The notes under the pieces: model-generated | Told to the model about the DNA's origin: nothing | Database searches by the model: none | Seen by the model: only the letters and a program-made list of their open reading frames with translations | From: a virus | Virus record (IMG/VR): IMGVR_UViG_3300035034_003525 | Location: 1-34,406 of that record | DNA: 34,406 nucleotides | Reading direction: 5' to 3' (one strand) | Shown: positions 890 through 25,123 of the stretch, in pieces | How positions within the stretch are numbered: the stretch's first letter is position 1 | Layout of the letters: each line of letters opens with the position of its first letter | Made by a program: the position numbers and the translations under genes

Positions 890-3800
890 ATGCAAAGTAA
901 AACAGAACAAACGCAAATAAATATACCTGAAAAAGAGTCTCTTGAACCACCAGAGCAAAAGGTTAAATCAAAGGATAAAGACATTAATTCTCAAAATAGC
1001 TTTCTGCAAGAGCAAAATGATGAGCCCCCTTTAATGGATTTTTCGTATGCGCTGAGGGTATATGATTACAATATTGCTGATGTAAAGCAAGACGAACTTC
1101 GCACAAAGGTTACGTATGCAATGCCTTCTCCTAAGCAATTTGCAGAGAATAATCCCAGGCTCGCTAATGATGAAGAAGCCTTTAATACCATGTATTCTAT
1201 AATAGAGGATAAATGGAGGCTTTATAAAGATGGCGATTTTTCTCAATGGTCAACAGAGGATATTTATGTTCCTGATAATAAGTATGGCGATTATTTAAAA
1301 AGAAAAACAGGCCAGAATTATCCTTCATTCATCCAGTATGATGATCCAAAACCTGTGTCACAAACAAGCCGACGCTTCCCTGGTATTGGTACTGTAGAAA
1401 TTGCCACTGCGGATGAGGTAGCAGATAAGACTCCTTTTATAAAAGATAAAGAAGGAAGGGTTCTCCCTGTTGATTATGAAAACCTCGAAACACAATATTT
1501 CAATGATTTTAAGCGTGTGCAAAACCTTGAGAAAGGCATCGATTTTTTTTGGCAAGAAGCGAAAGATGGAGAACGCATTGCCGGAGACAAAATAAGAAGT
1601 GCATTAGGTCCACGACATCTTGAGAGTTCATGGTATAAAGCTATACCGCGTGGATTGTGGTCAGGAACAGCACCAATGATGGTTAGAGGTAGCGGTCAGT
1701 TTATTGAGGTTATTGGCGATCTTATCGATCCTTCTGATCAGGATAAGTGGTCAGACCGTGTTGGCACAAACAGTTTAAATTGGGCAAATAAATACTCTAA
1801 ACAGAATTACGATGAAATGGAAGGAGCTTTTAATAACTGGAGTTCTTTCAGGTATCAGGTAATGAATGGTATAGGCCAAATTTCGTCTACAGTACTTCTG
1901 AACTATGCTACCGGTGGCATGTTCAGTTCTTTAGGATTATCCACTCAGCTTTCAGGAAAAATAGCGAAGCATTTTGGAATGTCTTTTATGGCGGCAGAAG
2001 CTGCAGGAGCCTTCAGGGAAGAGGCGAAAAATCTTGGAATTGGAGAGTTTGATTCTGCTCTATTGTTTCCGCTTATCATGGCAGCAACTTACGCTTCTGA
2101 AAGAGTAATACCCGCAGACTGGGAGCATCAAGGATTCAGTCGTTACACAAAACGCAATCTTAGAAAGACTATTAATAATGAATTTAAAGAATACGCGAAA
2201 ACGACAGGGATTCCTATTACTTCTATAGGGAAAAATGGAAAAGAAACGCTTATCAAAAGATCTTTAAATAAATGGAAGGAAGGCTTTAAAAATTGGGGTC
2301 CAAAAAGTGGCGTTTCAAGAAGTTTTCTTGGTGCTTTTGATGAAAGTCTTGAGGAAATTGGAGAAGGGTACATGCATTCAGGAATTAAAGACCTGTATAA
2401 CTTATATGCAGATGCAGAAGCATCAGAAACTCTTAACAGGTATAATGAGTCTTCATGGAAAGAGTCAGATAATCCTGATAAAATGATTGAAATATTATCC
2501 GATGGATCTGAAGTTGAAATTCCTAAAAAAGAATATGAGGCTATTCAAAAAGATATAGAGCTTTCCACAAAAATTAAGAATAAAGAAGGCGGGATGTTTG
2601 ACGACACTTCGGTTAACTTTGAAGAAGGGGCGATAGCTGGAATATCTTCACTGCTAACGGGATTACCAATCAATTTAATGCAACAAAGGAAGGAAGATAA
2701 TTCTGAGAATAAATTTATTGAACTTGCTTTGGCGCTTGAAAACGGAGATATTAAAGATAAGGATCTTGACGCTGCAATTAAAGAGGCAAAAAAAGATGGG
2801 GTATTGGGCTCTAAAGTAGCAACTGAAAACGGCGATGTCGTTAATGTTAAAGGAACAACTAAAGATGGGCAACCAGCCGAAACTCAAGCCAATCAATCCA
2901 AAAGAATTGTCAGGGAATCAATTGGGGTATTCCGTGATATTATTAAGCGTTACGGTATTAACTCAGCCGAAGTACTGAAAGCAACCATGGGCGATAAATC
3001 TGTTATCAAGGAAGCAACAAAAATAGCCCGTAAACTTGATGAAGCTAAGAAAGCTCTTGAAGCTTTAGAAGTAGACCCTTCTATTTTCACAGAAGAAGAC
3101 AGTCAAAAATATAATTCAGTTGAAGAAAAAACAAAGAAACTTGAAGCGGATGTTGAAAGGTATTCTAAAAAGTTTGCAGATGCTACACAGCCTAAGGAAG
3201 GTGGCAAATATTCCAAGACTTATTCGTCATTATATTTTGAATCAGCACAGGTATTTTATGGAGCAGAAAAAAAACTCAAAAAGAAAATACTTGACAAAGA
3301 TTTTGATGGGAAAAAATATGAAAATCTTACTCTTGAAGAGAGGGATAAATACAAAAAGAAACTGAATAAACAACGTAAGGATCTAGTAGAAACGCAACGT
3401 CCTCAAATTCTTCAGGATATTTATCAATTTCAAGCTTTAAGATCTGCTTCTGGAGAAGAGGTTCATAAACAAACCCAAGCGCTTTTTGATGAAGTAGCGG
3501 AGAATTATTTAAAAGAAGAAGAGCGAGTTCTTAAATCAACTCAAGATCGTTTTGACAAATCTATATTGTCCGATGAAAAAAGGGAAAGTGTAGATAAAGC
3601 GATAACTGATTTAGAAAAACAAGTCGGAGAAATAGCCAATTATAAAGAGGGTAGCGAAGTATCGCTTTCTGAAAAGTTTGAAAATACCAAAAAAAGTTAT
3701 CGGAAAATTCAAAACTTCATTGCAGATGTTGAAATCGGTGCTCTTCATGGTGATGCAAAAGCACAGCAATGGTTAGGTGAACTCGAAGGAATGAGGGCTC

Positions 3801-6800
3801 AAAGTGAAGCAGCTGTTGATCAAGCTCTCGGCAATCTTAACGATATGTTTGGCGAAGTCAATGAAGCGAATAAAGTTGATCCTGAATTATTAGATGCTGA
3901 TAGAGAAGTTGCTAGTGGGAATACTGAATTATTTAATCGTTTAAGGAATAAGCGTGGCAAAAGCATAGAAAATTTAACAGTGGAAGAACAGCTTGAGGTG
4001 CTTAATCAAATAATAGAAAAGCATCCTGTTTTTCTTGATGAGAAGAAAGAAGATCCAAGTACGCTTGAAAGCGTATTTAGAAAATACAAGGAAATGATGG
4101 ATAACAAGGTTGCAGTTATGAATCCTGCATCTATGGAAAAACATCTTGAACAGATTAAAGCGGTCCTTACTACTTTGCGCAATCAGTTTGAAATGAATGT
4201 TGAACTGATGCAAAATGATATTGAAGCAAATGAAAATACAGCAGAGCACTCACCGCTTCGTGATAAACCATATCAAAGGATAGATCAAGGAACCAGACCG
4301 GTCCTAAACAAAGAAGAATCAATTTCGGAAGGCGAATCTAACTATACTCAGATTATAGAAAAAATTGATAACTATCTTAATACCGTAAAAGACGTAAAAG
4401 AATATGTAGCGCAAACAAAATCTTCTCGTGATTCTTACAAAGTAAAAGCTAAGTCTTTACACCTCGGGGCAAGAGTATTTGCTCTTAATGGATTTATGGA
4501 GATTGATTCAAAACTGAACATTAAAGAGCTTGATGATATTGAGAAAGTGCTTAACGAGCACAATGTCAAAACGATAAACGAACTTCTTTACCTTTTCTCT
4601 AAAAGCAAAAAAGAAAAGCAAGAAGAAATACAAGGAGCAATAACAAAAATTGAAAGACTTATTGTTCAGGCTGAAACTTTTCTTGAAGGAAAGATGGATA
4701 ATGTGCTGAAAGAATTAGCGGAAGGCGCAACCACTTTTACTGCGCTTAAAGATTTTGTTTACGGATCGGCTATTTCGCCAAATGAAAACTCAGGGCTTTT
4801 AAGTGAATCAAATTTAGAAGTTGGAAAGAAAGACTTTAATTCAGAGAATAAGAACACAGACCTTGGAGAGCTTTATCAATACATAATGATAAGCAAAGCA
4901 TTGCAGATTAATCGCTTTGGAGGAAAAGATTTCTCAAAGGAGGATCTTTATGCTATATATCGTGACATGCTTTCAGAGAAAGAGCAAAAAGGATCTGATG
5001 AATTTGTTCCAAACTACGAGCAAGAGCAGGCCTTAATGGAAATCGTTTCTTTCTTGTTTGATCCGAAGTTTGATTCTTTTAAGAATTTCCTTAGTGAAGA
5101 TGAACATGATACAATGATTAGAAACGGGCTTTATGTCCGTGGCTTTGCTGGCACGGGGAAGACAACTATTGTACTTAAAAATTCTATTCAACTTCTTAGT
5201 AAGTTAAAAGGCCGGGGAGTTAAAGTAACAATAGTATCTCCTAATCGTAACCTTCAATCAAATATCGATAAAGATCTTCAAGATGTTTCAGAGATTGAAA
5301 CGTCGAATAACATTCTTCTTAGTGAATTTCTTGAAGGAAAGGCAAGTATTGATCCAGATTCTGATATCGTTATTTTTGATGAAATAAGCGTTATTACAAG
5401 AGATCAATCTAATATCATCAAAGATAAACTTAACAATTCTCAAATACCTTCATTATTTCTTGGGGATGATAACCAGGTTTCTGACTTATCATATACTGAC
5501 GATCAAGGAGCTGTACTTACTCCAAAGATGCCAATCATGGAGAAAACACAGCGCACTATTCCAATGACTGAGGTTTATCGTTCAGGAGTTAGTGATCTTC
5601 ATTATATACAGGATTATTATCGTAACCTTAGAACCACCGCTTCTGAAGGCGATCGCACCGATCTTCCAATAACTTCTTTTTCCGGAGAAGGAGCATCTAT
5701 GAAAGGCGTTCGCTACATGGAAACTACTCAAGAAATTGAAGAGGCATTCATGGATTACATGAAAAATAATCCAAATGCTCCTGTAACAGAAGTTATGCTA
5801 ATTGTAAAAAATAAAGCTGAGCGTGACGAGTTTTTGAGGAAACATCCTGAATATGAAAACCATGTAAGAACAGTTGAATTTATTATTGGGAATGAAGAAA
5901 ATGCGATATCAGGAATAGCTTCTAGGCATGTTTTCTTTGCTACCAATCCAGTTGTTACAAGTACTCCAAATGGAATTGTCACAGAGTCTCGGATAGGGCT
6001 GACAGGGGTTAGTCGTGCGTCTGAATCTCTTGTCATGATAGGGAAAGTTTCAAAGTCTAAAAAAACTGATAAAGTTCCTGAAAGTGAGAGTATAAATACA
6101 GAAGAAATTTCAGAGATAAGACAGGAAGAAATCAGAAGACTTCATGAAATTACTTCTAAAAAAGCTCCCGGAAATAAAACGGACAACGAGGATAATGAAA
6201 TAGATTCTAAATCAGACTTCCGATCAATTAATTTAACTGAAGATGGGAAGAATCAGGTAATCGTTGAATCGGAAGAAAAAATTAATGAGTTAAAAAACAA
6301 AGGAGTCAGTGCTTTAAAAGATCTTAATTCCGAAGATCCAACACTTACTCATATTACTGAATCATTATTTGAAAAAACAGGTAATGAAAATGCCAATACC
6401 CGTTCGAGAAATTCTATGGTTAAGGCTGCATTGCTTTATAATTTCAACTCAAGTGAAACAAACGAAAAAGCTTTCAGGGAAAGGATTCAAGAATACTTTG
6501 AAGCCACTGAAACAAAATATACAGAGGACGAACTTTTCAGTATTCTCTCTAATTCACTTTTTGCTTCTAAGGAAATTTTAGATATTCTTGATGAAGACCT
6601 AACATTGGTTAATCTTCCTTTTGTTTCCGGAGATAAAATTGCTATGCCGGCTATAGTTAAAATTGTAGGTTACAGCAACGGGCAGCCGGTGGTTGACGTG
6701 TACGATTTTAGAATAACAAGTGGAAAATCTATCACTAAACTGTCTGAATACGATAAGAAAAAACTTGCTGCTTATGCAGATATTTTAAGAGCGAATGGCC

Positions 6801-9800
6801 TTAAAATAAATAACCTTAAAATATCAAATATTGTAGAGACATTTGAAAAGAAGGGTGATTCTGTTTCGCTTGAATATTTTTACGGTAAAACATTGAAGCT
6901 CGATTCGGAAGAAGCTATTAGCCTCATGTCATTTGAGAATGAAAATGAAGCGAATGAAACGTTTGTTGGGCAAGAAGAGTTTTTTGAAAACGAAAGATCT
7001 TTAACAGAGAACAAAGGATTTAAGCTTGGACAACTCATTCAGGATAAAGATTCTCTTATATTTCATAAACTTCACGGTATTACTTCAAAAAGAATTGAAG
7101 GAAAGATTGTTACTCAATACCATATTGAGACAGAGAATGGAAATATTAAGGCTGTCAACCAATCAGAATTTGAGAGTCAATATCAGGTTCCAAATACCGA
7201 AGATCCTGTAACGCGTTTTAAAACCACTGCTGAAGACTTTGAAAATGGAGTGGACACAAATACCACAAATACCTTTTTCGTTACTGATGCTGAAGCTGTG
7301 AAGATTCTCGGGGAGAATTCGAGCTCAGTTCCAGTAGAAGATTTTTATAACCCTGATAAGAATGTTGTCTATGCAAGGAAAATGTTACTTGTTAAATACT
7401 TTTACCCTGGAGTTAGAGTAACAAAAGAATACCGTGATGGTGGCAAGGTGTTCGGAATGAAGAATGGTCAAATGGTACGATTTGAATATGACGGCAAAAT
7501 AGCCATTAATCGTATGTCTGAAAAAGACATTGATAAAGCTTTAGATTTATTAAATTCTTATGGAGAAGAAATAACAAAGCAGGAATTCATTGATCAGGGA
7601 TTGGATATTGTTTCGGCAGATTTTGAGCCTGAGTTTAATTTTGGTGCTGTTGATAAAACCAATACTGAAGGAAAGGTACGATCAATTCAGCCTAAAGCAT
7701 ACAACACTTACATGGAAGAAACAGACGATTCAAAGGCAGAAGCCCTTTTGGATAAAATGTTTGAAAATGCTTTTGACAATGATGATAATTTGGCAACCAG
7801 AGAAGCACTGATTGAAATGAATAAAGAGCGTATGCGAAGACTACGTTCAGAAGAAAAGGTTGAATCTGTTGTTAATTCTGTTGAGCCCGGAAAAATAATT
7901 CGTGTATTTGATGATTTTATTCCTATTAAGAACCTGATTGATAAACTTGTCAAAAAAAGGCAGGTTATTGAAGCGAAAGATCAAGATAATATGTATGTCA
8001 TTTCTGAATCTAAAAGACAGAAAAACGGCAAATGGCGTAATACAATTACAATTAAGCTTGATGGTGTTGGGGAGTTAACTTTTCTTATTGATCGGAAAAT
8101 TGTTAAAAACAATAAAGACCTTGATTATTTCCTTCAGGATTTATCTGAGGTAGAAGATTTGATTAAAGCATATGAAGAAAATTTTAAGGATCTTTCTAAT
8201 AAAGAAAAGGCTGATTTATTCAAAGAGGTTGAAGAATCCGTTTTATTCCGTTTTGTGAAAACCAATGCTAATATACTGAATAATTATAAAGATCAGTTAC
8301 CATTAAGGTTTAACGATAAAGGAGTTAGCATAAAAGGAAGTACTCCACTTCAAAAGATTAAATCTCTTAAAAGTATTGCGAAATTTATTTCTTCAGCAAT
8401 AGCTAATAACAGTATTGATCAGTATTTCCGTTATCCTGCAAAAAATAAGAGTGGTAAAATTGATATAGCACATTTTGAATCTATTGTTCATGATGTTACG
8501 CAACCAAACTTAAATCTTGAGTTTAATCGTATAAGCAAAAGTGCTCCAAAAGAACAAGAAACAAAAAAGCATGAGCCCGTTAAGCCAGAAAGCATATCAT
8601 CATTAGATCTTAGTAGCAGAACAAGTCTTACGATTGATGATATTAATAACAATTCTGTTGAAGATATTGTAAGTGCTTTTGAAACTATTGGAGCCACAAT
8701 AGATGAATTCGAAGCTGAAATTCTTTCTGAGGCCAAAAAGGGTGATGCAGATATGAATGAGATTCTTGAAGCATTAAATCAAAAACTAAGCGATGATGAA
8801 GAGTATCCTAAGTTAGTATCAACAGAGAATAAGCTTTCTTTTGTTTCTCTTGAAAAAGCCAGGGAAACACTCAGAAGTATTATTGGTGATTTAACCGATA
8901 CAAATGTCTTTTTCCATAATGGATATTTGTATACTAAAGATGGTCAGCGTGCACTTGGCCTTACCCGTGATGCATTAATAAAGCTTGCTATGCTGGATGG
9001 GAAAACATCTTCTCAAACAGTTCGACATGAAGCAATGCACTTCATCATTAATAATATGGTGAAGCCCGGACAACGTAAAAAAATATTAGAAACAGCACGT
9101 AAAGAAATGGAGGATAACGGAGAAAAAATAAATTCCGAAAGCGATATCCATGAATATATTTCAAAGCTTTATGAGAACTCCGAAAACATAAAATTTAAAA
9201 ATCTACTTCAAAGATTCATTATGTGGTTAAAGAAAGTAGCTAATCAATTCGGAGCATATCATTACACTTTTGACGAAATTTTATATCTCGCAGATCAGGG
9301 ATATTTTAAAGATCGTCATGCATTATCATCTAACGAAAACACCTTTTACAAAGTTGAAAATGAGCATAATAGCGAGGAAAGTATTAAGTATCTTGAATCA
9401 AGAATAGGTGATGTTCAGCTTGTGGATTGGGTGAAGAACAATATTTTTATACCTGAATTTATTGAGCAATCACCATTTGGCAGAGGCTTAAACGAAAACA
9501 AAACAGTTGGAGAAGCTCTTCTTGCTCTTTATAACAAGTACGATAGTATTGATGAGAAAACTCGTGAAAAACTTAGCAGGGTACTGGATAGAGACGGAAG
9601 CTTAAACTTTGAGAAAATCAAGAGAATGTTTAATACTCCATTAGGAAGGAAATATTTGAAAAGAGATATTTACCCTGTATTACTCAGTGACAAAAAGATT
9701 TTTGCTTCAATGACACAAATTGCTTTAGGTCGCGTAAACTTAAATGCGCTTGTGGATTTCAAGAGAAAAAAAGCCTTGGATAGTGAAAGTGTTAGTGGAG

Positions 9801-12800: not shown

Positions 12801-15800
12801 CTTACTTCATGGAAGAATACGAGAATAACGGGCAAGATATCCGGAAAGCTTCAACAGCATTAATTGACAGGGCAGCCAATGATACAGATATAAGAAAGTT
12901 AATTGATGATCAGATGGTTGGTTATATTTTGTTTGAATCTGCTGTAAAATCAGGGAAAAGAAAAATAATAGATTTTGATGTGCCTATAGGAGAAATGCTA
13001 ACACTTCAAAATGTATCAATAAATAAAAGCTTAAACAATGAAAAGAACAGGATTAAGATAAATAATGACGCTTATAAAATTCAGACTGTTACAAAGCAAG
13101 ATGTGATTGAAGCTGAAAAAGTTATCCCTACTCAGATTCTTAGTGTTATCGGTGGCTTAGATAACGAAACAAATGAGACAATTGTAAAGGAAGTAAACCA
13201 TGGATTAGCCGGTACTGCAAATATTATTCGAGAGAAACTTGTTTCTATGAGTTCAGGCAAAAGCATAGAGTACATGAAAGAGTTGTTGCATTATACTGCA
13301 ATGAAGCGTGGAGATACAGGAAAAGCAGGGCGGGTATCTGCATGGGCAAGTCCTGATGTTTCAAGAAATAAAGCTATTGCTGCTTTTCTTACCGCAGTGA
13401 ATAAATATATAAAACCAAATATGGCCGGACAGTCTTTTGTTCAAGCTCCGGACCTTGGTAATATGTATTTTGATAAAGACGGGAATGCATACTTGCCTTC
13501 TGATCTTGATCTTGATGATGATTCTCAAAATGTTGATGGTAAAGTAAGGCGGCCATTAAAGCCAATACTTTTTATAGTAGAAGGCAAAGAAACAAAAACT
13601 GACGGCACTTTATTCACAAAAGAAGAGCTTATTGAAGCTCAAAAGGCAGGGAAAAAAGTTGAGATTAAACCTGCTGAAGTGATTGCTCCTTTTGGCTACA
13701 TGAAAGTATTCGGAATTACTCGTAACACTACGCTTCGTGATGTTATGAGTGTAGTCATAAATGGCAAGGAAGTGAAATTTGATAATGCAAATCCTGAATA
13801 TAAAGACGTTCAGAATAAAGTCAATAAAGCTTTTGAAGGAATGGAACTGGACGGCATACTTGATTCCTTCCATCCTGATATCAGAACAGAAATTATCAGA
13901 AGGTTTACACAGTCTATTCGTGTTAATGATAAATATGATCTGCTTGATACTATTCAAGAAAGCAATCCGAAACTATACAAAGAAATCGATAAGCAATTAA
14001 AAACTCTTGATGAAGAAGGAATTCCTGGAGAAGGTAGCAAGGCTTTTGGTTTAATGATGAACGTGATATCCAATTATTATTATAACCTGAATAAAGCTTT
14101 AAACGTATTTGGGGTCCGTATTCCTACGACCAACGCATCTTCAGGGTGGGTCGGTCGTATTGTAGCTTTTGACTATGAAAGCGAAAATACAGTATATACT
14201 TCTGCAGAAAAGAACATTCTTGACGGTTCTGATTACGATATTGACCAAGTTTCTATGTATTTCCTTTCTCTTGATGAATGGGGAAATGAAATAACTCCTG
14301 ATTCAGTCATTAAAGAAAGAATGAAGGCTGAGAAAAAAGCACATAAAGAAACAGGTAAACTAAAAGAGAAAGCAGAAGATCCGAATTCAATTGATGAAAT
14401 AGATGCAGATTATTCAAAGGCAGAAAAATTTGATACTAAATATAATGGGAATATGATATTCACTGCTTTGCAAAAGTTTTATCGTGAGTCCGGAAATATC
14501 GAAATGATTCTTGAAGAAATTAATCTTGATAGTTTCCGTGATAAAGCGGACCTTGTTCCTCAGGAATGGCAGGAATTTGTTTCTGATATTAGTTCTAACA
14601 TGAAAGCTTCAGAGATTAATCTCTCAGGGCAAAAGCTTGTAGGGCACTTTCAAAACCTTGAAAAGTTTACGCTTAAATTGTTAGCAATTCCAAAAGCCAC
14701 AAGGGATCAAATATTGCCTCCTGAAAAGTTTAAAATGTTTTCAGGTAATAAGGCTATTTCTGAGCAGATCGCTTTTGTTGCAAAGCTTATTAATGCCGCT
14801 ACCGATAACGCCAAAGAAGGTGGACTTCTCGGTAGACTGAATATTACAGAATCAACTTCACCTATTGTGAATGGAATGGTGATGGCCGGTCTTTCAGAAA
14901 AAGAAATACTAGATATTTTACAGAATGAAACAATTTTAAATGCTTCTAAAAAGAGCATGACATCTAAGTCTATTACCGGGTATAATGATAATGGAGTTCC
15001 TGAAAACGCACAATATAAAATAATTCCTATATGGGAAGCCATAAGTGAATATATATCAGGAGATTATTTTGATACTCCCACACACCAAATAAAAGATGAA
15101 AAAGATCGCTTTCTCGTTCAAATTCGTGAGTATGCATATATGGGAGAGCAATTGCGGAGATTTGGAAACATTACTAATATTCAACAGGAGATTAGTATTG
15201 AAAATTCTAAGCGAAATAATGTAATCAATAGTATTAATGAAGCCATTGGAACCACTGATGCAGATGAATATATTCAGCGCAGGCTTGCAGGAGAATCTAC
15301 AACTGGAATTATGAATATTCCTACTGACGGGCATGAGTCAAATATTAGAAAACAATTTAATATTGGTGATGCAATGATGGAAAACGAAATGCTTTATACA
15401 CATGTAAGAACACTTGCTCAGGTACAAAAAACAATTAATGAATCTATTACTACAGATAAGGTTATTAATAAAGCCAAAGGAACAATTGAAAAACGTCTTG
15501 GGCAAAGCATTAATATTCCTGTTGTTTATGAAACGATAGAACGTGGTATTGAAGATTATATTGTCGGCCAGTTTATTGCTGATAATTTTAAAGAAGTAAC
15601 GGTTGGAGATCAGGCTTATGACTTATCGTTAGCAAAAAATAGGGTAAGATTTAGTATGGATTTCCCTTTATTTATTGAGGAATATACTTTTAACTGGTAT
15701 AAAAATGCACCAAAAGGGAAGAAGAATAATACTTTCTTGAGAAGGGTTAAGCAGCGTAGTACAAAGTCCGGCTACCTTTATCTTGATTTTTCTTCATCTA

Positions 15801-18800
15801 ATGATGTGAACGATACCCATAAAAAACTGTACCGAGATCATTTTGAGATAATTGATGAAAGTGTTAAAAATGCTTTTAGAGCGTATCAGTTATTAATGAA
15901 TGGGTTCCGTTATAAGAATGGGTCTATGATTGATTTTACGGATGAAAAAGCAGAACGCCAATACACAAATTGGATTCAATCTTTTGATCCGGAAAAGATA
16001 AATGAAAACGATCTTGCTGAGCAGGTTATTCTTCGCAATAAGGAACTTGTTCATTATGCAGCGGACACCGAAAAACTTATGAAAAAGTTGAAAAAGAATG
16101 ATATCATTACGTCATTGATTTATTATACGCCAAAAAAGGCATCTTTCAACCCACACATTTATAAGTTTGATATTAAAAAAGGAACTAAAGAGTATCTTAA
16201 CAGTCCTTATCCTACATTGATAAACACGTATTCTGCTAAATCTGAAACAACAAATCTGCCTGTTATTGACGCTCTTTCCAGCAAGGAAATGAGAACGTTT
16301 AAGAATAATGATTCTGTTATAATCAAATCATATTTTCCTATAGTTGTATGGCACCAAAAAAACAACGACTACCCTTACTCATTATCAAACAAGGATCAAG
16401 CTGTGCTTCAAGATGGAACTGTTGGAAATGTGGAAATTGTCGGTCCTAAACATAAAAAAGACAATCTAACAAATACAAGTATAATAAAATTCACTAAGGC
16501 AAATAAGCCTCAAGCTTCAAGGATATCTAAAAATCAAAGTAAAGCTTCATACTATGTTTTAAAGTCATTCATGGATAAGTTACAAAAAGCTTTTCCAAAT
16601 ATCCGCATTAATTATGTGAATAACATTACGAGCAAACATCCTGAATTGATAGGGTATTTTGAGAACGGACAGGTCTTTTTCAATACAGATAAATTGCAGC
16701 TTGACACGCCTATTCACGAGATTACTCACGTGTTCATTGACATACTTGAAAGTGCAAATCATGAACTGTATCGTGCTCTTGAAAATGAAGCTATAACTTT
16801 AATTGAAAGTAATCATGAGGTCGTTCAGGAAATCCTTAAAGAATATGCAGATATTTCAAAAGTGGATCTTGTTAAGGAAGTTATTGCAACTATGGCCGGA
16901 TGGAATAGCCAGGAAGCCGTCAGAAATCTTTTAGACAAGACTCCGGGCATGAACTCTGATCAAAAAGCAAGTACGCTATATGGCAAAATTTCGGCCCTTG
17001 TCAATCGTTTTTATACATGGTTGAAGAATGCGGTTTATGGCGCGTTAGGTGTTCAGCAAATAAACAGTAGAACATTAAAGGATTTCGATTTTAAAAATGC
17101 TACTATTAAATCATTCGCTGAAATGATGGTTAATGCTGTTAATAACGGACAGGTTCTATCGTATGTGTCCTCAAAGCAAATGAGTAATATAGCCAAGGCT
17201 GACGTTTATGCTTCAAAAATTAAAACGATTTATGATGTAAAGAAGATGGCCAAGGTGCTTACGAACCCAAGTGACAGGTTTGATTTCGAGGAAATGTCAA
17301 CTGATGCTAAGGTCGATTATGTTTACAATCTTATTGATACTAATACAGGTAAAATCGGGGCTGGTCTAACTGGAACAGAATATAATTTCAAAGGAATGAC
17401 AGTAGATGAAATCAAATCTACTATTCGTAAAAAGGTTATTACTGAATACGAAACTCGTGATAATAAATTTAAAGCGAAAATAAGTAACTGGATTAATGAA
17501 CATGAAGCTTCTGTGCATGATTCTATAGAAACTTTTGGAAAAACTAGTAACGATATTCCTATTTATAAGGTTCCTATTCTCAAAAAGTTTAAAAAGCAGA
17601 TTGAATATGCTTCATTTAAAGAGTTTGGAAGAGTTTCTGAGCTTGAAAAAATGGAAGGTGGAGAAGAGATTGCGAAGCATTTGTCAAAAAGTATCCGAAG
17701 TTTCGATCCCCATATTTCAATAGAGAAAACGTCTGACGGTTCAATTTACGTGTCGCTTTATGATATTACCATGGACAATATCGACAGGCCGGATATAGAA
17801 AATGAGCTTGGCAATATTGCTTCTCGATTTTTAACGGATAGAGAAGCTAAAAAAATGGGTCTGTCTATGACAAATAACCCAGGTGATGTTCGTCAGCTAA
17901 TGCTTGTTTTAATGGCAAACAAACTAATGAATGCTAATCCTAATATTAAGATTAAGGAGGCAGGAGTTATCAGTCTTAAGCCTTCAGGTAGCCAAATGAA
18001 AATGATTGATTTTTTAAAGGTTAATAAGAACATTAGTGTATTGTCTCAAATAGATGATTTTATAAATAGTTTGAGTCCGGAATTAAAAGAATTGTTTAAG
18101 CAGGAATTAAAAATTCCAAAAGTAGATTATGAAAAGCTTCTAAATAATTTTTATGAAAATGCAGCCGATAACTCGTTCCCTAAATATATAAAAATGCTAT
18201 TTCAGAATCCTGAAAATTATACTGTTATACAGAAAAAGAACCTGTTAATGGCAAGACTCAGATATGCGCTTGAAAATAATGACGAAACAAATAATTATCG
18301 TCAGGAAATTAATCTGCTTACGCAGACGTTACTTGATCTTAAGACGGTAAATGTGGTTGACACTGAAATGAATAGTGAGGATATGTCACTGCTTAGTGAT
18401 ATTGATAAATTCATTCAACCCGGACAATATATTGCCAATGATATCATTCAGGCTTTACGTGAAATAACCCTGGACACTTCCAATAAAATTGTTGAAGAAG
18501 TTCAGGAATTTCAATCTGAATTTAAGCCTATTCAAAAATGGTTTGAGAGTAGAAATAGTGGTATTTCAATAGGTTTTGGAGATAAGTCTCACAGGTTTTT
18601 CAAAGATTTATTTGTAAAACGTGACATTGACGGTTCTGGAAACGAAGTTTTTACTGGTGAAATATTCTGGACTACTGATGAAACAAAAGATCCTGTTAAC
18701 GCAAAAAAAGCAAAAGAACTTGGTCTTTCTGCAGAACTATTGGAACAGGGAGAAAAACTTGTGAATATGATTACGGATCAATATATCGACCTTGTTTATC

Positions 18801-20707
18801 ATTATCATGAAATGCAAGGATATATGAAAAATCTTAAAACTGGTAAGCCTAATTATAATTTTACAAAGAAAGACGCTTATGAGTCGTTAATGCAAAATTC
18901 TTCATATCAGAAAGGGATGCTTCCTTTAATGACAAAAACTTCTGAACAATTATTTAATGAAGGAGAATTAGGGAAGTCTAGTAAAAAACGGCTGAGTCAG
19001 ATTACTAACAACATGAACATGTTTGATGATGCAAATGATCTTTCAAAAACTGACGTGAAAGAAATAAATAAGCTTTCTGATCAATTCTTTAATCAAATTG
19101 GGTACATGCGTGAAGGCAGTAACACAAAGTTTGGTAGCCATGCAAGAACTTTTGATATTCTTGGAATTGGGAAAAATTCAAAAGGAGAAATTGTTCTTGA
19201 CAGTCAGGAGAAAAACAACAATATCACTACTGATATTGAAACAATTATGAATTATTTTGCCATGAGTTCTAAGCGAAAGATTCATTATGAAAACGATGTG
19301 CTACCTATAATCAATGGAGCAAAAGTTTTTATGACAGATATGAAAAATCATAAAGATAAAAATCTGAGTAATGAAATTGATTATGTGGAAATGTTTACGG
19401 AAATGTCTATTCGCGGACAACGCCGTAACCTTGGTGGTGATATTGGAGGAGTAGAGCTACAACCAACAATTAGTACACTTTCAACTGTTGGTGGTACAAT
19501 TGCGCTTTTCGGTAATGTGAATGTTGGTGTTGTATCATCATTAATTAATGGAATGCACTCGTTCGTGGAAGGAATAGCGAACCAGTTTGTTGAACGTGGG
19601 ATATTTAACTTTTCGGATCTTATCAAAGCAAACAGGTTAATATTCAGCGAATGGGGGAAGATGTCTGAGCTTTGTAAGATGTATCAGAATATTTCAATGA
19701 GTGAATGGGAATTAATTTCACATCCTCAAAATATGAGCAAAACGAAAAAAGGACAGATTCTTTCAAGGTATTGGGGTCATATGTTTAACTATGCTTCTGA
19801 CTATTATGGTCGTAATCTGGTAATGATTGCTCAAATGGTGCATGATGGAACCTGGGATGCTCATGAATTTGATAGCGAAACAGGGAAGATTAATTACAAT
19901 CGGAAAAAAGACAAGCGTTTTTATGATGAAAACGGACAAATGACTGAAGACGGAAATGTACTGTATGAAACAATTCGTAATCAAGTTTATAAAGATGGAT
20001 TCAAAGGACAGAAAAAAGAAGGAGAACTTGTAAGGGCTTATACCCGTAAAGAATCGAGGAAGTTTAAAAATATTTCTGATATGTTTGTTGTGGGAGCTTA
20101 TACGGATAAAGAAAAAGTCATGTTGACTCACTATACACTTGGCCGCTTCTTCGCTGTATTCCGTAATTACTTATTTACACACGTCCAAAATGCAGTAATG
20201 AAAGGTCATTATATTGGTGATGTTGGAAGGTACAAAGTGAAAAAGGATGCTCATGGCAAGCCTATGGCTGAATGGGAAAGACTTTACATGGAAGGATGGG
20301 TCAGAACAGCAACACGAATGATTGGCGATGTGGTTAAAACAAGAAGTCTTGACAACTTTAAGAATATGAGCGAATCTGAGAAATACAACTGGTTAAGAAT
20401 TGCATCAAAAACATTGATGGTTCTTGGTGTTTCTATGCTTTACAACATGTCTGTGAAAGACGATGATGATGATAAAACAGGTTTCGTTCCGGATTGGAGA
20501 ATCCTTCGAAACATAAAATATTCTTATGCCGGTGTGTTTGCCTTGTTTGATAGTGGAATTATCTCAAGTCCTTTTGCAATTATTTCTGTATTTAAACGAA
20601 TACTTACTAATCCTATAGGAGAATTTGAAGTTGAAAATATTCAAAGATTTGCTCCGGGATATACAACAATAGAAACACTTTATGAACCAATTAAAAATGA
20701 AGAATAA
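890..20707 (+). CDS. Giant polyvalent virion protein: SF1 helicase, two zincins and crAss-like DPBB RNA polymerase (6605 aa)
   Basis: This is one uninterrupted reading frame of 6605 codons (roughly 750 kDa). In order: a polar N-terminus (1-50); a hydrophobic, Ala/Gly-rich stretch (about 320-405); coiled coil (about 690-1000); an SF1 helicase (Walker A GFAGTGKTT 1418-1426, Walker B FDE ending 1498, GDDNQ near 1525, GVSRASESL near 1705); a zincin with HEAMH at 2713-2717; coiled coil (about 3700-3795); a two-barrel RNA polymerase core (about 4150-4480) with catalytic DYDID at 4448-4452; a second zincin with HEITH at 5276-5280; and hydrophobic C-terminal segments (about 6190-6230, 6500-6570). In crAss-like phages the DxDxD protein is a virion RNA polymerase that is injected and transcribes early genes (phi14:2 gp66, 2180 aa). 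Related genomes usually carry several separate large ORFs here, so this looks like a fusion. I infer that the helicase aids entry or promoter opening and the zincins cleave self or host proteins. It overlaps the next gene by one base (TAATG). Confidence 0.8.
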   Translation: MQSKTEQTQINIPEKESLEPPEQKVKSKDKDINSQNSFLQEQNDEPPLMDFSYALRVYDYNIADVKQDELRTKVTYAMPSPKQFAENNPRLANDEEAFNTMYSIIEDKWRLYKDGDFSQWSTEDIYVPDNKYGDYLKRKTGQNYPSFIQYDDPKPVSQTSRRFPGIGTVEIATADEVADKTPFIKDKEGRVLPVDYENLETQYFNDFKRVQNLEKGIDFFWQEAKDGERIAGDKIRSALGPRHLESSWYKAIPRGLWSGTAPMMVRGSGQFIEVIGDLIDPSDQDKWSDRVGTNSLNWANKYSKQNYDEMEGAFNNWSSFRYQVMNGIGQISSTVLLNYATGGMFSSLGLSTQLSGKIAKHFGMSFMAAEAAGAFREEAKNLGIGEFDSALLFPLIMAATYASERVIPADWEHQGFSRYTKRNLRKTINNEFKEYAKTTGIPITSIGKNGKETLIKRSLNKWKEGFKNWGPKSGVSRSFLGAFDESLEEIGEGYMHSGIKDLYNLYADAEASETLNRYNESSWKESDNPDKMIEILSDGSEVEIPKKEYEAIQKDIELSTKIKNKEGGMFDDTSVNFEEGAIAGISSLLTGLPINLMQQRKEDNSENKFIELALALENGDIKDKDLDAAIKEAKKDGVLGSKVATENGDVVNVKGTTKDGQPAETQANQSKRIVRESIGVFRDIIKRYGINSAEVLKATMGDKSVIKEATKIARKLDEAKKALEALEVDPSIFTEEDSQKYNSVEEKTKKLEADVERYSKKFADATQPKEGGKYSKTYSSLYFESAQVFYGAEKKLKKKILDKDFDGKKYENLTLEERDKYKKKLNKQRKDLVETQRPQILQDIYQFQALRSASGEEVHKQTQALFDEVAENYLKEEERVLKSTQDRFDKSILSDEKRESVDKAITDLEKQVGEIANYKEGSEVSLSEKFENTKKSYRKIQNFIADVEIGALHGDAKAQQWLGELEGMRAQSEAAVDQALGNLNDMFGEVNEANKVDPELLDADREVASGNTELFNRLRNKRGKSIENLTVEEQLEVLNQIIEKHPVFLDEKKEDPSTLESVFRKYKEMMDNKVAVMNPASMEKHLEQIKAVLTTLRNQFEMNVELMQNDIEANENTAEHSPLRDKPYQRIDQGTRPVLNKEESISEGESNYTQIIEKIDNYLNTVKDVKEYVAQTKSSRDSYKVKAKSLHLGARVFALNGFMEIDSKLNIKELDDIEKVLNEHNVKTINELLYLFSKSKKEKQEEIQGAITKIERLIVQAETFLEGKMDNVLKELAEGATTFTALKDFVYGSAISPNENSGLLSESNLEVGKKDFNSENKNTDLGELYQYIMISKALQINRFGGKDFSKEDLYAIYRDMLSEKEQKGSDEFVPNYEQEQALMEIVSFLFDPKFDSFKNFLSEDEHDTMIRNGLYVRGFAGTGKTTIVLKNSIQLLSKLKGRGVKVTIVSPNRNLQSNIDKDLQDVSEIETSNNILLSEFLEGKASIDPDSDIVIFDEISVITRDQSNIIKDKLNNSQIPSLFLGDDNQVSDLSYTDDQGAVLTPKMPIMEKTQRTIPMTEVYRSGVSDLHYIQDYYRNLRTTASEGDRTDLPITSFSGEGASMKGVRYMETTQEIEEAFMDYMKNNPNAPVTEVMLIVKNKAERDEFLRKHPEYENHVRTVEFIIGNEENAISGIASRHVFFATNPVVTSTPNGIVTESRIGLTGVSRASESLVMIGKVSKSKKTDKVPESESINTEEISEIRQEEIRRLHEITSKKAPGNKTDNEDNEIDSKSDFRSINLTEDGKNQVIVESEEKINELKNKGVSALKDLNSEDPTLTHITESLFEKTGNENANTRSRNSMVKAALLYNFNSSETNEKAFRERIQEYFEATETKYTEDELFSILSNSLFASKEILDILDEDLTLVNLPFVSGDKIAMPAIVKIVGYSNGQPVVDVYDFRITSGKSITKLSEYDKKKLAAYADILRANGLKINNLKISNIVETFEKKGDSVSLEYFYGKTLKLDSEEAISLMSFENENEANETFVGQEEFFENERSLTENKGFKLGQLIQDKDSLIFHKLHGITSKRIEGKIVTQYHIETENGNIKAVNQSEFESQYQVPNTEDPVTRFKTTAEDFENGVDTNTTNTFFVTDAEAVKILGENSSSVPVEDFYNPDKNVVYARKMLLVKYFYPGVRVTKEYRDGGKVFGMKNGQMVRFEYDGKIAINRMSEKDIDKALDLLNSYGEEITKQEFIDQGLDIVSADFEPEFNFGAVDKTNTEGKVRSIQPKAYNTYMEETDDSKAEALLDKMFENAFDNDDNLATREALIEMNKERMRRLRSEEKVESVVNSVEPGKIIRVFDDFIPIKNLIDKLVKKRQVIEAKDQDNMYVISESKRQKNGKWRNTITIKLDGVGELTFLIDRKIVKNNKDLDYFLQDLSEVEDLIKAYEENFKDLSNKEKADLFKEVEESVLFRFVKTNANILNNYKDQLPLRFNDKGVSIKGSTPLQKIKSLKSIAKFISSAIANNSIDQYFRYPAKNKSGKIDIAHFESIVHDVTQPNLNLEFNRISKSAPKEQETKKHEPVKPESISSLDLSSRTSLTIDDINNNSVEDIVSAFETIGATIDEFEAEILSEAKKGDADMNEILEALNQKLSDDEEYPKLVSTENKLSFVSLEKARETLRSIIGDLTDTNVFFHNGYLYTKDGQRALGLTRDALIKLAMLDGKTSSQTVRHEAMHFIINNMVKPGQRKKILETARKEMEDNGEKINSESDIHEYISKLYENSENIKFKNLLQRFIMWLKKVANQFGAYHYTFDEILYLADQGYFKDRHALSSNENTFYKVENEHNSEESIKYLESRIGDVQLVDWVKNNIFIPEFIEQSPFGRGLNENKTVGEALLALYNKYDSIDEKTREKLSRVLDRDGSLNFEKIKRMFNTPLGRKYLKRDIYPVLLSDKKIFASMTQIALGRVNLNALVDFKRKKALDSESVSGASGQKLVEAESFDPNLSRSEFQKMLLQSIPIYDEGKKAKVEYNGNIVYYANPNTMDHILIDAANRLKQMGKRHFTDQEFFDMLEKMKNETDKSKYKTLIYSFMSTFGNKKFADSEGNADLNFRMQNNGYQALAEDEQVSLEKRKRYRDIVSGFISYYSSLGNVSLALVNLTEKQSWEVKSSADDKVMKAYIRESMKTHFIGQGGFLNKDVSEVFDSANQKNLSVTKEGIFFNGKLYIKGDIKKQSPMAISIILNNLKLNKKGIFTQRIIEELNKEVIGQSSEKGNKNWSMSLGQYLHAITAGLQARVIVDKEYTKHFDNGGKARDLKFSKETKAALDLAKSLYQKASIQWDSVEQNTNRTSERSGVPDLPSPADFYMYYEYIGNLMKQYNADIGTRMIVNSEGNFEYSHPLSSNLYDAAMGGSRSLIAHVSDLSKKDYVSNLPRKIKNENIDPVSPIIGNNGYNNPILANVISVDPIQKFDGIKTFLRSGGIDKMTDKDFAKVIIEELTYKQIIKGGNESVLPSLYGTLADKKNRSVFNVVSERNPIFFKSFAEGYDFLEELGVNYTGLANSIDLFVNYYEKTNNLALGRWNNVLGKNFKSTESLQKYIEEGLSAAETKVIINQLTEKKDYFEKFNPETRTIKITGLGNSIITEDSNIIYKPSFIAEWRKTNTIKDLIKRGRKQQELLEKATLESRQQFAEWIADSGYKMTSKMTDLFKQFGYNMESGEQISDMIEKHIEELREKEKKRKEIGYKIGERKKIEAEIDKLRGTEKKEALKEAEENLEQFDQQFKNLNEMYGTLKKEIKAIQQKHTKESRKIRKQIIENKYQSEGNQIHPLIDIAFWNFHVLNESMDQIVRGSQTNYANLTDFIKRGSSLTGPGTHVDTSRKDGVGKTANTLILRDIPGLQKQFSEKFEEELHTDGLSIVNPIWAEMLKRSAGQEFGNVHNGMLKPMIFDYNPVTDDLIYAKLSQMPINNRQFRNNKIFKQMFEMMVGEELMPYFMEEYENNGQDIRKASTALIDRAANDTDIRKLIDDQMVGYILFESAVKSGKRKIIDFDVPIGEMLTLQNVSINKSLNNEKNRIKINNDAYKIQTVTKQDVIEAEKVIPTQILSVIGGLDNETNETIVKEVNHGLAGTANIIREKLVSMSSGKSIEYMKELLHYTAMKRGDTGKAGRVSAWASPDVSRNKAIAAFLTAVNKYIKPNMAGQSFVQAPDLGNMYFDKDGNAYLPSDLDLDDDSQNVDGKVRRPLKPILFIVEGKETKTDGTLFTKEELIEAQKAGKKVEIKPAEVIAPFGYMKVFGITRNTTLRDVMSVVINGKEVKFDNANPEYKDVQNKVNKAFEGMELDGILDSFHPDIRTEIIRRFTQSIRVNDKYDLLDTIQESNPKLYKEIDKQLKTLDEEGIPGEGSKAFGLMMNVISNYYYNLNKALNVFGVRIPTTNASSGWVGRIVAFDYESENTVYTSAEKNILDGSDYDIDQVSMYFLSLDEWGNEITPDSVIKERMKAEKKAHKETGKLKEKAEDPNSIDEIDADYSKAEKFDTKYNGNMIFTALQKFYRESGNIEMILEEINLDSFRDKADLVPQEWQEFVSDISSNMKASEINLSGQKLVGHFQNLEKFTLKLLAIPKATRDQILPPEKFKMFSGNKAISEQIAFVAKLINAATDNAKEGGLLGRLNITESTSPIVNGMVMAGLSEKEILDILQNETILNASKKSMTSKSITGYNDNGVPENAQYKIIPIWEAISEYISGDYFDTPTHQIKDEKDRFLVQIREYAYMGEQLRRFGNITNIQQEISIENSKRNNVINSINEAIGTTDADEYIQRRLAGESTTGIMNIPTDGHESNIRKQFNIGDAMMENEMLYTHVRTLAQVQKTINESITTDKVINKAKGTIEKRLGQSINIPVVYETIERGIEDYIVGQFIADNFKEVTVGDQAYDLSLAKNRVRFSMDFPLFIEEYTFNWYKNAPKGKKNNTFLRRVKQRSTKSGYLYLDFSSSNDVNDTHKKLYRDHFEIIDESVKNAFRAYQLLMNGFRYKNGSMIDFTDEKAERQYTNWIQSFDPEKINENDLAEQVILRNKELVHYAADTEKLMKKLKKNDIITSLIYYTPKKASFNPHIYKFDIKKGTKEYLNSPYPTLINTYSAKSETTNLPVIDALSSKEMRTFKNNDSVIIKSYFPIVVWHQKNNDYPYSLSNKDQAVLQDGTVGNVEIVGPKHKKDNLTNTSIIKFTKANKPQASRISKNQSKASYYVLKSFMDKLQKAFPNIRINYVNNITSKHPELIGYFENGQVFFNTDKLQLDTPIHEITHVFIDILESANHELYRALENEAITLIESNHEVVQEILKEYADISKVDLVKEVIATMAGWNSQEAVRNLLDKTPGMNSDQKASTLYGKISALVNRFYTWLKNAVYGALGVQQINSRTLKDFDFKNATIKSFAEMMVNAVNNGQVLSYVSSKQMSNIAKADVYASKIKTIYDVKKMAKVLTNPSDRFDFEEMSTDAKVDYVYNLIDTNTGKIGAGLTGTEYNFKGMTVDEIKSTIRKKVITEYETRDNKFKAKISNWINEHEASVHDSIETFGKTSNDIPIYKVPILKKFKKQIEYASFKEFGRVSELEKMEGGEEIAKHLSKSIRSFDPHISIEKTSDGSIYVSLYDITMDNIDRPDIENELGNIASRFLTDREAKKMGLSMTNNPGDVRQLMLVLMANKLMNANPNIKIKEAGVISLKPSGSQMKMIDFLKVNKNISVLSQIDDFINSLSPELKELFKQELKIPKVDYEKLLNNFYENAADNSFPKYIKMLFQNPENYTVIQKKNLLMARLRYALENNDETNNYRQEINLLTQTLLDLKTVNVVDTEMNSEDMSLLSDIDKFIQPGQYIANDIIQALREITLDTSNKIVEEVQEFQSEFKPIQKWFESRNSGISIGFGDKSHRFFKDLFVKRDIDGSGNEVFTGEIFWTTDETKDPVNAKKAKELGLSAELLEQGEKLVNMITDQYIDLVYHYHEMQGYMKNLKTGKPNYNFTKKDAYESLMQNSSYQKGMLPLMTKTSEQLFNEGELGKSSKKRLSQITNNMNMFDDANDLSKTDVKEINKLSDQFFNQIGYMREGSNTKFGSHARTFDILGIGKNSKGEIVLDSQEKNNNITTDIETIMNYFAMSSKRKIHYENDVLPIINGAKVFMTDMKNHKDKNLSNEIDYVEMFTEMSIRGQRRNLGGDIGGVELQPTISTLSTVGGTIALFGNVNVGVVSSLINGMHSFVEGIANQFVERGIFNFSDLIKANRLIFSEWGKMSELCKMYQNISMSEWELISHPQNMSKTKKGQILSRYWGHMFNYASDYYGRNLVMIAQMVHDGTWDAHEFDSETGKINYNRKKDKRFYDENGQMTEDGNVLYETIRNQVYKDGFKGQKKEGELVRAYTRKESRKFKNISDMFVVGAYTDKEKVMLTHYTLGRFFAVFRNYLFTHVQNAVMKGHYIGDVGRYKVKKDAHGKPMAEWERLYMEGWVRTATRMIGDVVKTRSLDNFKNMSESEKYNWLRIASKTLMVLGVSMLYNMSVKDDDDDKTGFVPDWRILRNIKYSYAGVFALFDSGIISSPFAIISVFKRILTNPIGEFEVENIQRFAPGYTTIETLYEPIKNEE

Positions 20708-24065: not shown

Positions 24066-24779
24066 TTAATATTTTGTGTATGTAAAATATTTGATATTAA
24101 AATCAGAGTATTCAGTATGACCTTTTGGTGCTACATTTCTAATCATGTTGTTAATCACAAGATTCATAGAGTATTCGTTTAAATAATCCATGGTAGATTT
24201 ATTCGTAACGGTTCTAACAAGCTTATCATTATAAAAAAATTTTAGGCTGTCTTTTCTCCATTCCAAAGCATATATCATATGCGTTTTATTCGGTGATTTA
24301 AAGCCAATCCAATGATCTCGTGCCGGTGGTGTATGTACGTAGTTTCCTCTGGTGTGAACATTTGATTCAATGTTGTAAAGCGAGGGATTGTTAATGCTTG
24401 GCCTAAAGTACCCAAAATGTTTAGAAGAATAGGCTTCGAATATATCAATTTCAGGAGGCCAATCCCCCCACGCCCACAACCAAAATGCCGGCCATAACCA
24501 ACGGCCTTCAGGGAGCCTTGCTTTTATTTCAAACCTTCCCCACGTAAAGTGTTTTAAACAAGAAATAAGACCAACAGCATTAATAGATTTTACTTTCTTC
24601 CCATCTATCTCAAATATTTTAGGTTTCCATTGAGTTAATAGGCTTATAGAACCATCTGGCCTGAGTATAACAGAATTCTTATCATAATACGCCTGTCTTT
24701 TTTCTTTGTGTATCTGACCCCAACGTTCTTGTGTCAACCATTCATATCCACACCACTGAAATGTTTTTCTTAATGACAT
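24066..24779 (-). CDS. Glycoside hydrolase family 16 (laminarinase/agarase type), 237 aa
   Basis: The GH16 active-site motif is clear: EIDIFE at residues 110-115, matching the ExDxxE form with nucleophile Glu110, assisting Asp112 and acid/base Glu115. It is flanked by family features: a strand with FTWGRFEIKARLPEG (78-92), an aromatic PAFWLWAWGDWPP just before the motif, and IYALEWRKDSLKFFYND downstream. GH16 enzymes cut beta-1,3/1,4 bonds in glucans and marine galactans. The length is close to a bare catalytic domain; there is no signal peptide and no carbohydrate-binding module. The start overlaps the upstream gene by 10 bases. Lying in a KilA-N/HNH operon rather than with tail genes, it may be released at lysis to degrade host exopolysaccharide or neighbouring polysaccharide. 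The substrate cannot be read from the sequence. Confidence 0.88.
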   Translation of the reverse strand: MSLRKTFQWCGYEWLTQERWGQIHKEKRQAYYDKNSVILRPDGSISLLTQWKPKIFEIDGKKVKSINAVGLISCLKHFTWGRFEIKARLPEGRWLWPAFWLWAWGDWPPEIDIFEAYSSKHFGYFRPSINNPSLYNIESNVHTRGNYVHTPPARDHWIGFKSPNKTHMIYALEWRKDSLKFFYNDKLVRTVTNKSTMDYLNEYSMNLVINNMIRNVAPKGHTEYSDFNIKYFTYTKY

Positions 24780-25123
24780 TTTTTAATTTCGTTATCTATG
24801 ATTGTTAATATTTCATTTCCTCCTTTGTCATAAACTCCAATTTCACCAATGAACAATCCGCTATCTGAAAACTTGGTTTCGGATGGTAATTCATAAGTTC
24901 GTGTAGTGTGGGATATTATTTCGTAAACAATATCGCCAAACAACACTACGTTAATATATGTACCTTCTATTTCAAATTCTTCATTAATATTTACTGAAAC
25001 GCTGCCTTCAAAGTCTTCATAGTTTATTAATTCAATGATGCCTGAATAGTTGAAGCTTAATATTTCTTCAATCTTTTTAATTACCAATTCTTTAAGATTG
25101 TCTGGTAAATTCATGTTTTTCAT
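24770..25123 (-). CDS. Unknown small acidic protein (117 aa)
   Basis: No family was recognised. It starts with an amphipathic helix (LPDNLKELVIKKIEEIL) followed by alternating strands (SVSVNINEEFEIEG, YINVVLFGDIVYEII), giving an alpha-plus-beta fold rich in Glu and Ile. It has no signal peptide or membrane helix. The start overlaps the KilA-N gene stop as ATGA, and the end overlaps the GH16 start by 10 bases. It is therefore translationally coupled to both neighbours and belongs to the same operon. No function can be assigned. Confidence 0.75.
   Translation of the reverse strand: MKNMNLPDNLKELVIKKIEEILSFNYSGIIELINYEDFEGSVSVNINEEFEIEGTYINVVLFGDIVYEIISHTTRTYELPSETKFSDSGLFIGEIGVYDKGGNEILTIIDNEIKKCH

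Follow-up and report, generated by a model that had tools for sequence, protein, structure and literature searches.

The window (the whole 34,406-nucleotide stretch analyzed, IMG/VR record IMGVR_UViG_3300035034_003525) carries a plus-strand ORF that begins with ATG at position 890, ends at 20707 and contains no internal stops. This ORF is the virion RNA polymerase (RNAP) block of Crassvirales in one piece and not a new machine, and its features are as follows.

890..20707, plus strand: fused Crassvirales transcription (virion RNAP) block, a single ORF of 6605 aa and 753.8 kDa with one cysteine
1952..3352, plus strand: gp47-like N-region, aa 355-821 (hhalign probability 76, score 55.7; decoy maximum for this profile 26.5)
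4931..6229, plus strand: SF1 helicase core, aa 1348-1780 (Pfam AAA_30 and AAA_19 above cut-off; hhalign)
8792..9325, plus strand: zincin-1, aa 2635-2812 (HMM without window rows, E = 2.4e-12; HEAMH at 2713, E2755)
12329..15013, plus strand: RNA polymerase core, aa 3814-4708 (HMM, hhalign, AlphaFold2 model match to 6VR4)
14231..14245, plus strand: DYDID catalytic triad, aa 4448-4452 (D4448, D4450 and D4452 invariant in 64 aligned sequences)
16526..17026, plus strand: zincin-2, aa 5213-5379 (HMM without window rows, E = 1.3e-13 at 5257-5379; HEITH at 5276)
18812..20494, plus strand: gp49-like C-terminal region, aa 5975-6535 (HMM without window rows, E = 1.9e-14; hhalign probability 98)
19478..19546, plus strand: hydrophobic segment, aa 6197-6219 (Kyte-Doolittle)
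19673..19675, plus strand: the only cysteine codon, C6262, inside the gp49-like part and away from the splits
20534..20590, plus strand: hydrophobic segment, aa 6549-6567 (Kyte-Doolittle)

The 19.8-kb stop-free frame described in an earlier note on this DNA is real. The same frame, 6627 codons from stop to stop, is uninterrupted in two other IMG/VR records, 3300012170_000002 (43.3 kb) and 3300028415_000003 (70.8 kb), with stretches of 22.9 kb that are 99.97% and 100% identical to the window. Locus L003 aligns with the C-terminal third over 9,627 bases with 50 mismatches and no gaps, and 17 codons differ within the ORF, 8 of them silently. The C-terminal third is also unbroken in record L012, as a 2196-aa ORF equivalent to residues 4410-6605, and in one further record, as a 2087-aa ORF. 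Because other records carry the same ORF without interruption, an indel artifact is very unlikely. A scan for ribosome sites, which may not suit these hosts, detected one at aa 3052 and none across aa 3052-5979 (the expected second split).

Upstream of the block, the 70.8-kb record encodes members of the TerL, portal and major capsid protein (MCP) families phrog_6681, phrog_6547 and phrog_11589, placing crAss-type TerL, portal and MCP genes ahead of the transcription block, an arrangement that marks Crassvirales. In tblastn searches, 138 phage records match its TerL; those listed, 40 in number, are largely crAss-like or Flavobacterium phages, and the best rows are Crassvirales (taxonomy confirmed for cr4_1, cr53_1 and cr55_1). 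Within the ORF, gp47-like and gp49-like parts flank the polymerase in the conserved order. The view of a crAss-like phage whose single chain bears a DxDxD RNA polymerase together with a helicase and two zincins is supported.

Single-sequence searches leave the 6605-aa protein nearly invisible. A PHROGs search returned one weak family of unknown function, Pfam searches of slices of 1,500-2,105 aa gave matches below cut-off only, and phmmer of the polymerase slice against the PDB gave none. In tblastn searches against phages, residues 1-1000 and 3801-4800 had no match, and the helicase had three weak matches (E = 0.03-0.06) in other phages. Used as a query, alignment A1 led back to this virus and to a pair of distant contigs, of which one was known before.

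Profile work resolves the parts. HMMs for four block domains were seeded with crAss-like phages together with G005, G006 and MT835470, excluding window rows, and grown on ORFs from 80 IMG/VR loci; their E-values refer to a search of one protein. The top matches of these four window-free HMMs in the 6605-aa chain (zincin-1, polymerase, zincin-2 and a gp49-like end) follow the Crassvirales block order, which is gp47-gp50-gp49 in crAss001 and gp67-gp66-gp65 in phi14:2. Profile-profile comparisons were calibrated in the first hhalign round with decoys obtained by reversing and shuffling segments (seven profiles, 15 decoys per profile). Decoys scored at most 32.3, as opposed to 42.7-120.8 for accepted matches in that round. 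Among its 11 profiles, four had no match at a probability of 20 or more (crAss001/cr111 gp47, two Leptolyngbya proteins and the upstream gene). In the second round, the two FpV4 profiles had none at 10 or more, and Suoliviridae profiles matched weakly (probability 10-12 for the first ORF and 26 for the second).

The N-terminal parts of the chain resemble gp47-like proteins. The aa 355-821 region is common to G005, G006 and MT835470, and in profile-profile comparison this region and the helicase (1348-1529) are colinear with gp47-like proteins, whose helicase stretch matches that of the window with hhalign probabilities of 84 and 91. The SF1 helicase that had been proposed for the chain is confirmed: once excised whole, it clears the Pfam cut-offs (core at approximately 1415-1566; AAA_30 at 36.6 bits versus a cut-off of 27, and AAA_19 also above cut-off), and a Walker A motif, GFAGTGKT, is visible by eye. 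The helicase HMM reached an E-value of only 0.0089 against the chain, and the helicase call therefore rests on Pfam and hhalign.

Both predicted zincins are also present, each with its motif and HMM support. The H and E of the zincin-1 motif and E2755 are conserved in 53 of 53 relatives, and the last H in 45 of 53. Zincin-2 matches a Leptolyngbya phage protein with an hhalign probability of 95.7. There is some cross-matching: the zincin-2 HMM reaches zincin-1 at 1.3e-5, and two weak matches (0.0035 and 0.019) come from the zincin-1 HMM. Hydrophobic segments had been claimed near both ends of the chain. The C-terminal pair holds, and the aligned stretches of three gp49-like relatives at aa 6197-6219 look hydrophobic too (by eye, alignment A1), but no N-terminal segment exceeds 1.4 in a 19-residue Kyte-Doolittle scan.

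The polymerase core was recovered in several ways. Its window-free HMM gives 4e-13 at 3917-4533 and 4e-4 at 4621-4708, and hhalign gives a probability of 94 at aa 3814-4190 with an extra profile set that lay outside the decoy runs. The DYDID motif lies within GSDYDID, so the chain has the DxDxD triad in the R-x-P and G-S-D context of a gp66-like core, and the R, P, G and three D residues are invariant between the window and 63 relatives. In this 64-row alignment (A4, built from the window, 61 loci out of 76 eligible and two additional ones), R4410, P4412, G4446, D4448, D4450, D4452, D4639 and G4667 are all invariant. The AlphaFold2 model of the core has a mean pLDDT of 67.3 and a pTM of 0.71. 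In Foldseek, 6VR4 (the virion polymerase of phi14:2) is the sole match to this model at 0.001 or below, with E = 3.9e-18 as opposed to 0.048 for the row that follows, and a second aligner superimposes 683 residues on 6VR4 (Z = 18.6, rmsd 5.1). Its next matches are the RNA interference polymerases QDE-1 and RDR2 (Z of approximately 13), and kinship of crAss-like polymerases with these enzymes has been described (PMC7886860, in the part consulted). The structural check proposed earlier, judged on the whole fold and not barrel by barrel, therefore finds the expected fold, and the model points to a gp66-type polymerase on the one chain.

In relatives, this content is divided among several large proteins (two to four), as the earlier note had stated without giving a number. 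Our first set consists of 80 IMG/VR loci, the best 80 of at least 473 confirmed relatives ranked by similarity to cr55_1 and left unthinned; given this ranking, it is no random sample. The usual form in these best 80 is two ORFs, one with zincin-1 and polymerase and the next gp49-like, often with zincin-2. Complete polymerase ORFs (57 in these best 80 of at least 473 loci) have a median length of 4258 aa and a maximum of 5549 aa, and 32 of them reach at least 4,000 aa, such that calling the window's ORF extreme for a phage was an overstatement. Five of 23 open-ended polymerase ORFs were extended, and two TAG-recoded ones reach 6219 and 5977 aa and lack their separate gp49-like ORF. Zincin-1, polymerase and the gp49-like part share one ORF in 2 of these best 80 loci (L046 and L075) and in none of 36 further loci (a second set, below). 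The 6605-aa ORF is the longest that we measured and the third full fusion seen. Full fusion is therefore rare yet not unique, RNAP ORFs of more than 4,000 aa are common among relatives, and having the whole block in one ORF is the extreme of a continuum that was known before; in the portion consulted, a review already gives crAss RNAP genes as "up to ~6000 aa."

Named relatives illustrate this continuum. In cr4_1 and cr55_1 (Suoliviridae), zincin-1 and polymerase share an ORF of 4491 aa (counted with TAG read through) and 4551 aa, respectively, and in Flavobacterium phage FpV4 they are joined on a first ORF of 4287 aa. All three differ from the window in having the gp49-like part on a second ORF (1803, 2007 and 1596 aa). 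The zincin-2 motif is on the second ORF in cr4_1 and cr55_1 and on the first in FpV4, as opposed to the single ORF of the window. The full fusions L046 and L075 resemble the window in uniting zincin-1, polymerase and gp49-like part, but they are shorter (5549 and 5005 aa); L046 lacks a zincin-2 HMM match, and in L075 the helicase follows the polymerase, whereas in the window it precedes it. A functional parallel is gp96 of Thermus phage P23-45, a giant virion protein that has a metallopeptidase domain and to which a virion RNA polymerase is fused; it differs in being the tail tape measure of a long-tailed phage and in having its polymerase at the N-terminal end (PMC10770324, in the part consulted).

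The position of the helicase varies among relatives. The SF1 helicase (AAA_30) precedes the polymerase in the window, G006 and MT835470 and follows it in L054, L075 and L091, and, as judged from these sequences, it is a module with two possible positions in the block.

The 6605 residues of the chain include a single cysteine, C6262. Approximately 63 would be expected at the 0.96% found in 99 other ORFs of crAss-like genomes, and approximately 18 at the 0.27% found in the same phage's own plus-strand genes. Block proteins of relatives are likewise cysteine depleted, with an internal content of 0.018% across 69 standard-code loci. The TAG-recoded loci (n = 11, including L073 and L065) have 0.268%.

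The cysteines that split blocks do contain lie mostly at the ends where pieces face each other. In the cultured phage phi14:2, whose gp65-gp67 are annotated as virion proteins from MS/MS, gp067 has one cysteine (residue 1797 of 1797), gp066 has two (residues 3 and 2179 of 2180) and gp065 has one (residue 3 of 1421), such that all four cysteines among 5,398 residues sit at facing ends. These proteins (gp66 is 6VR4) share polymerase fold, motif and part order with the window, but they are three proteins with cysteines only at facing ends, whereas the window has one ORF and no end cysteines. In crAss001, with a zincin motif in gp47, a polymerase motif in gp50 and a gp49-like end, the block comprises three ORFs on two strands and not one ORF. 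Here, gp47 has C2339 of 2341; gp50 has C5 and C2404 of 2412, plus an internal C1334; and gp49 has C5. The pattern is kept even though gp47 lies on the opposite strand from gp50 and gp49, and gene adjacency therefore cannot cause it. The crAss001 cargo proteins gp45 and gp46 have no cysteine near their ends, and cr111_1 does have internal block cysteines.

The same end-cysteine pair occurs in Leptolyngbya phage Lbo-JY46 (L015/L021), in which a protein of 1552 aa ending in cysteine is followed by one of 2748 aa that starts MSNC and has two HExxH motifs and a gp49-like end (phmmer, approximately 1e-30 to crAss001 gp49 in a small set). This cyanobacterial phage thus carries a crAss-like block, annotated as hypothetical proteins; according to the part of the crAss001 atlas consulted, crassviruses appear to infect Bacteroidota only.

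To score this pattern, a cysteine was counted when within the last 12 residues of the upstream protein or the first 12 of the downstream protein, and junctions cut by a locus edge were left out. In the first set (best 80 of at least 473), 88 of 93 junctions have the upstream C-terminal cysteine, 90 have the downstream N-terminal cysteine and 87 have both, as opposed to 0 of 63 outer C termini and 1 of 53 outer N termini. That one exception, L102, lies inside a chain: the preceding ORF, open at its 5' end within the locus, has a single cysteine as its last residue. Among 99 other ORFs of crAss-like genomes, 5 have a cysteine at the N-terminal end, 9 at the C-terminal end and none at both; for 16 other ORFs of the 80 loci, the counts are 0 (N-terminal) and 1 (C-terminal). 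The three full fusions (the window, L046 and L075) have no cysteine within 12 residues of their ends. No description of the pattern was found in the literature listings searched, a scope that excludes the full text of the paper on the phi14:2 polymerase and of the crAss family paper from 2018, and the word "cysteine" is absent from the excerpt of PMC10172136 examined.

A second, phi14:2-centered set of 36 loci was assembled after a prediction had been written down, before fetching, that at least 90% of junctions would have both cysteines. Contigs encountered before (37, identified by manual matching) were removed from it, as were 7 near-duplicates with an identity of at least 80%. Both cysteines are present at 44 of 49 junctions, with 0 of 27 outer C termini and 1 of 21 outer N termini having one. 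L193 proved to be crAss001 itself (100% over 22,661 bases), which had been examined before the prediction; without it, the counts are 43 of 48 (89.6%) and 0 of 26. Taken literally, the prediction is narrowly missed; the 90% level is reached if two breaks inside the catalytic motif are discounted as protein junctions. The outer N-terminal exception is L188, in which the preceding ORF's only cysteine is 17 residues from its end. Across both sets without L193, 0 of 89 outer C termini have a cysteine. Fisher tests, with L193 included and all failures counted, give P values of approximately 1e-46 and 1e-54 for loci that are related to one another; clustering of the 123 polymerase cores, duplicates included, yields 17 groups at 40% identity and 43 groups at 50%.

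Of the 142 junction rows, 11 fail the 12-residue rule because one cysteine or both are missing (6 in the first set and 5 in the second), and the following explanations were made after seeing the failures. L083 has a cysteine at residue 3 if a GTG start is used, the break in L108 interrupts an ORF that its relative L098 has in one piece, and L078 and L086 have a single cysteine 23 and 31 residues from the C-terminal end. In L170 (three rows), the polymerase gene is broken and an ORF of 577 aa is inserted, with cysteines at the C-terminal end of the pieces before and the N-terminal end of the pieces after. In L148 and L158, the DxDxD codons are interrupted by approximately 0.93-0.95 kb, at a place where a protein would not be expected to end. 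In L095 (two rows), the polymerase is in two pieces (12915-16403 and 16470-19088) and an ORF of 1163 aa is inserted; cysteines lie near both ends of the second piece and at the N-terminal end of the next ORF, but the first piece has none at its C-terminal end, and this is the one junction that the rule fails to explain.

Breaks of approximately 0.9-1.0 kb within the DxDxD codons occur in the polymerase genes of three phages (L148, L158 and MT835470, the last represented by L016/L022). They lack end cysteines and look intron-like. In L140, three ORFs without block-domain matches lie between a polymerase ORF with a cysteine tail and an ORF starting MSCKDKQ, which by eye resembles gp49-like starts.

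Taken together, these patterns suggest, with a probability of roughly 0.65, that the 6605-aa ORF is the virion transcription block as one polypeptide and that split forms are likely stapled by disulfides; packaging, ejection, the bond and the zincin targets are what we infer here. The chain would run from a gp47-like entry part with helicase and zincin-1 through RNA polymerase and zincin-2 to a gp49-like tail. By extension from its homologs, it would be packaged in the capsid, threaded through the tail as one chain and transcribe early genes after delivery. In split relatives, the pieces would most likely be stapled at their facing ends. The staples would probably be disulfides, which the reducing cytoplasm would open, and the split string would then fall apart there. 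In the 6605-aa chain, peptide bonds would replace the staples, end cysteines being absent, and the chain would stay whole after entry unless the zincins that it carries cleave it. The idea that fusion is accompanied by cysteine loss is based on a small number of cases, the three full fusions. The cytoplasm in which virions assemble is reducing, and the disulfide would therefore have to form later. The broader proposition has slightly better than even odds: the transcription machinery of crassviruses would be delivered as a single covalent string, several thousand residues long and joined end to end, with links that are either peptide bonds or a terminal-cysteine code in otherwise cysteine-depleted proteins, forming disulfides in the virion or during ejection that open in the host cytoplasm. 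Passage through the tail would, in the simplest account, require one string in fixed N-to-C order. In the parts consulted, PMC10172136 reports gp47, gp49 and gp50 in crAss001 virions by mass spectrometry, and discusses constrictions under 50 Å and partial unfolding of the cargo.

The earlier note offered two possibilities, an injected machine or a polyprotein that its zincins would process. The former is favored, because the homologs include proteins detected in virions. Cleavage into gp47-, polymerase- and gp49-like proteins before packaging is improbable: relatives do produce the same pieces as separate proteins, and both zincins of the window keep HExxH, but the cysteine pairs at facing ends of separate pieces suggest rejoining and thereby disfavor a cut before ejection. 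Moreover, zincin-1 is present in split forms (crAss001 gp47 and the polymerase ORF of many two-ORF loci) and is therefore not tied to the fused state, and HExxH is intact in only 17 of 45 zincin-2 relatives. Zincin cutting after delivery is possible.

The link between neighboring pieces could also be something other than a disulfide. How disulfides would form in anaerobic or reducing surroundings is not obvious, and end cysteines serving a shared metal site, a common third partner or other thiol chemistry is the most plausible of the competing accounts, though still rather unlikely. Cysteines at facing ends and bare outer ends are what links between neighbors predict, other cysteines are so scarce that a cysteine metal site would have few ligands available, and disulfides are reported elsewhere in the crAss001 virion, in the tail barrel and hubs (PMC10172136, in the part consulted). 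Far less probable is that the cysteines are a by-product of translational coupling, reflecting codons around overlapping stop and start sites; many block ORFs overlap or sit within 20 bases of each other, but the pairs persist across gene gaps of 356, 505 and 532 bases and on opposite strands (crAss001 gp47 and gp50), and the distance from cysteine to stop varies. An assembly artifact that joined two ORFs, which the split blocks of the nearest relatives might bring to mind, has a negligible chance of being correct, given that two other records have the same frame, that a further two hold unbroken C-terminal ORFs of 2196 and 2087 aa, and that L046 and L075 are full fusions as well.

The stapled-chain reading bears on how very large crassvirus polymerase proteins cross a narrow tail while keeping their proper order and stoichiometry. 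If it is true, the continuous chain would be a selected trait, with gene fusion replacing paired end cysteines in some lineages, and a simple sequence rule would tell which virion proteins are linked, and in what order. End cysteines would also separate true protein ends from introns and errors in metagenomic ORFs. This rule is the part likely to surprise specialists, and the cultured phages phi14:2 and crAss001 allow direct testing.

Beyond the block, the window encodes on its minus strand a KilA-N/ANT antirepressor (25120-25893), a GH16 glycosyl hydrolase (24066-24779), a DNA methyltransferase (27174-27668) and a helicase (31650-32903). An OrfB_IS605 (TnpB-like) gene lies at 30025-31143. The alignment of L012 (14091-15263) to the window breaks at this TnpB-like region, where L012 has a different ORF of 390 aa, and this spot thus appears to differ between near-identical viruses.
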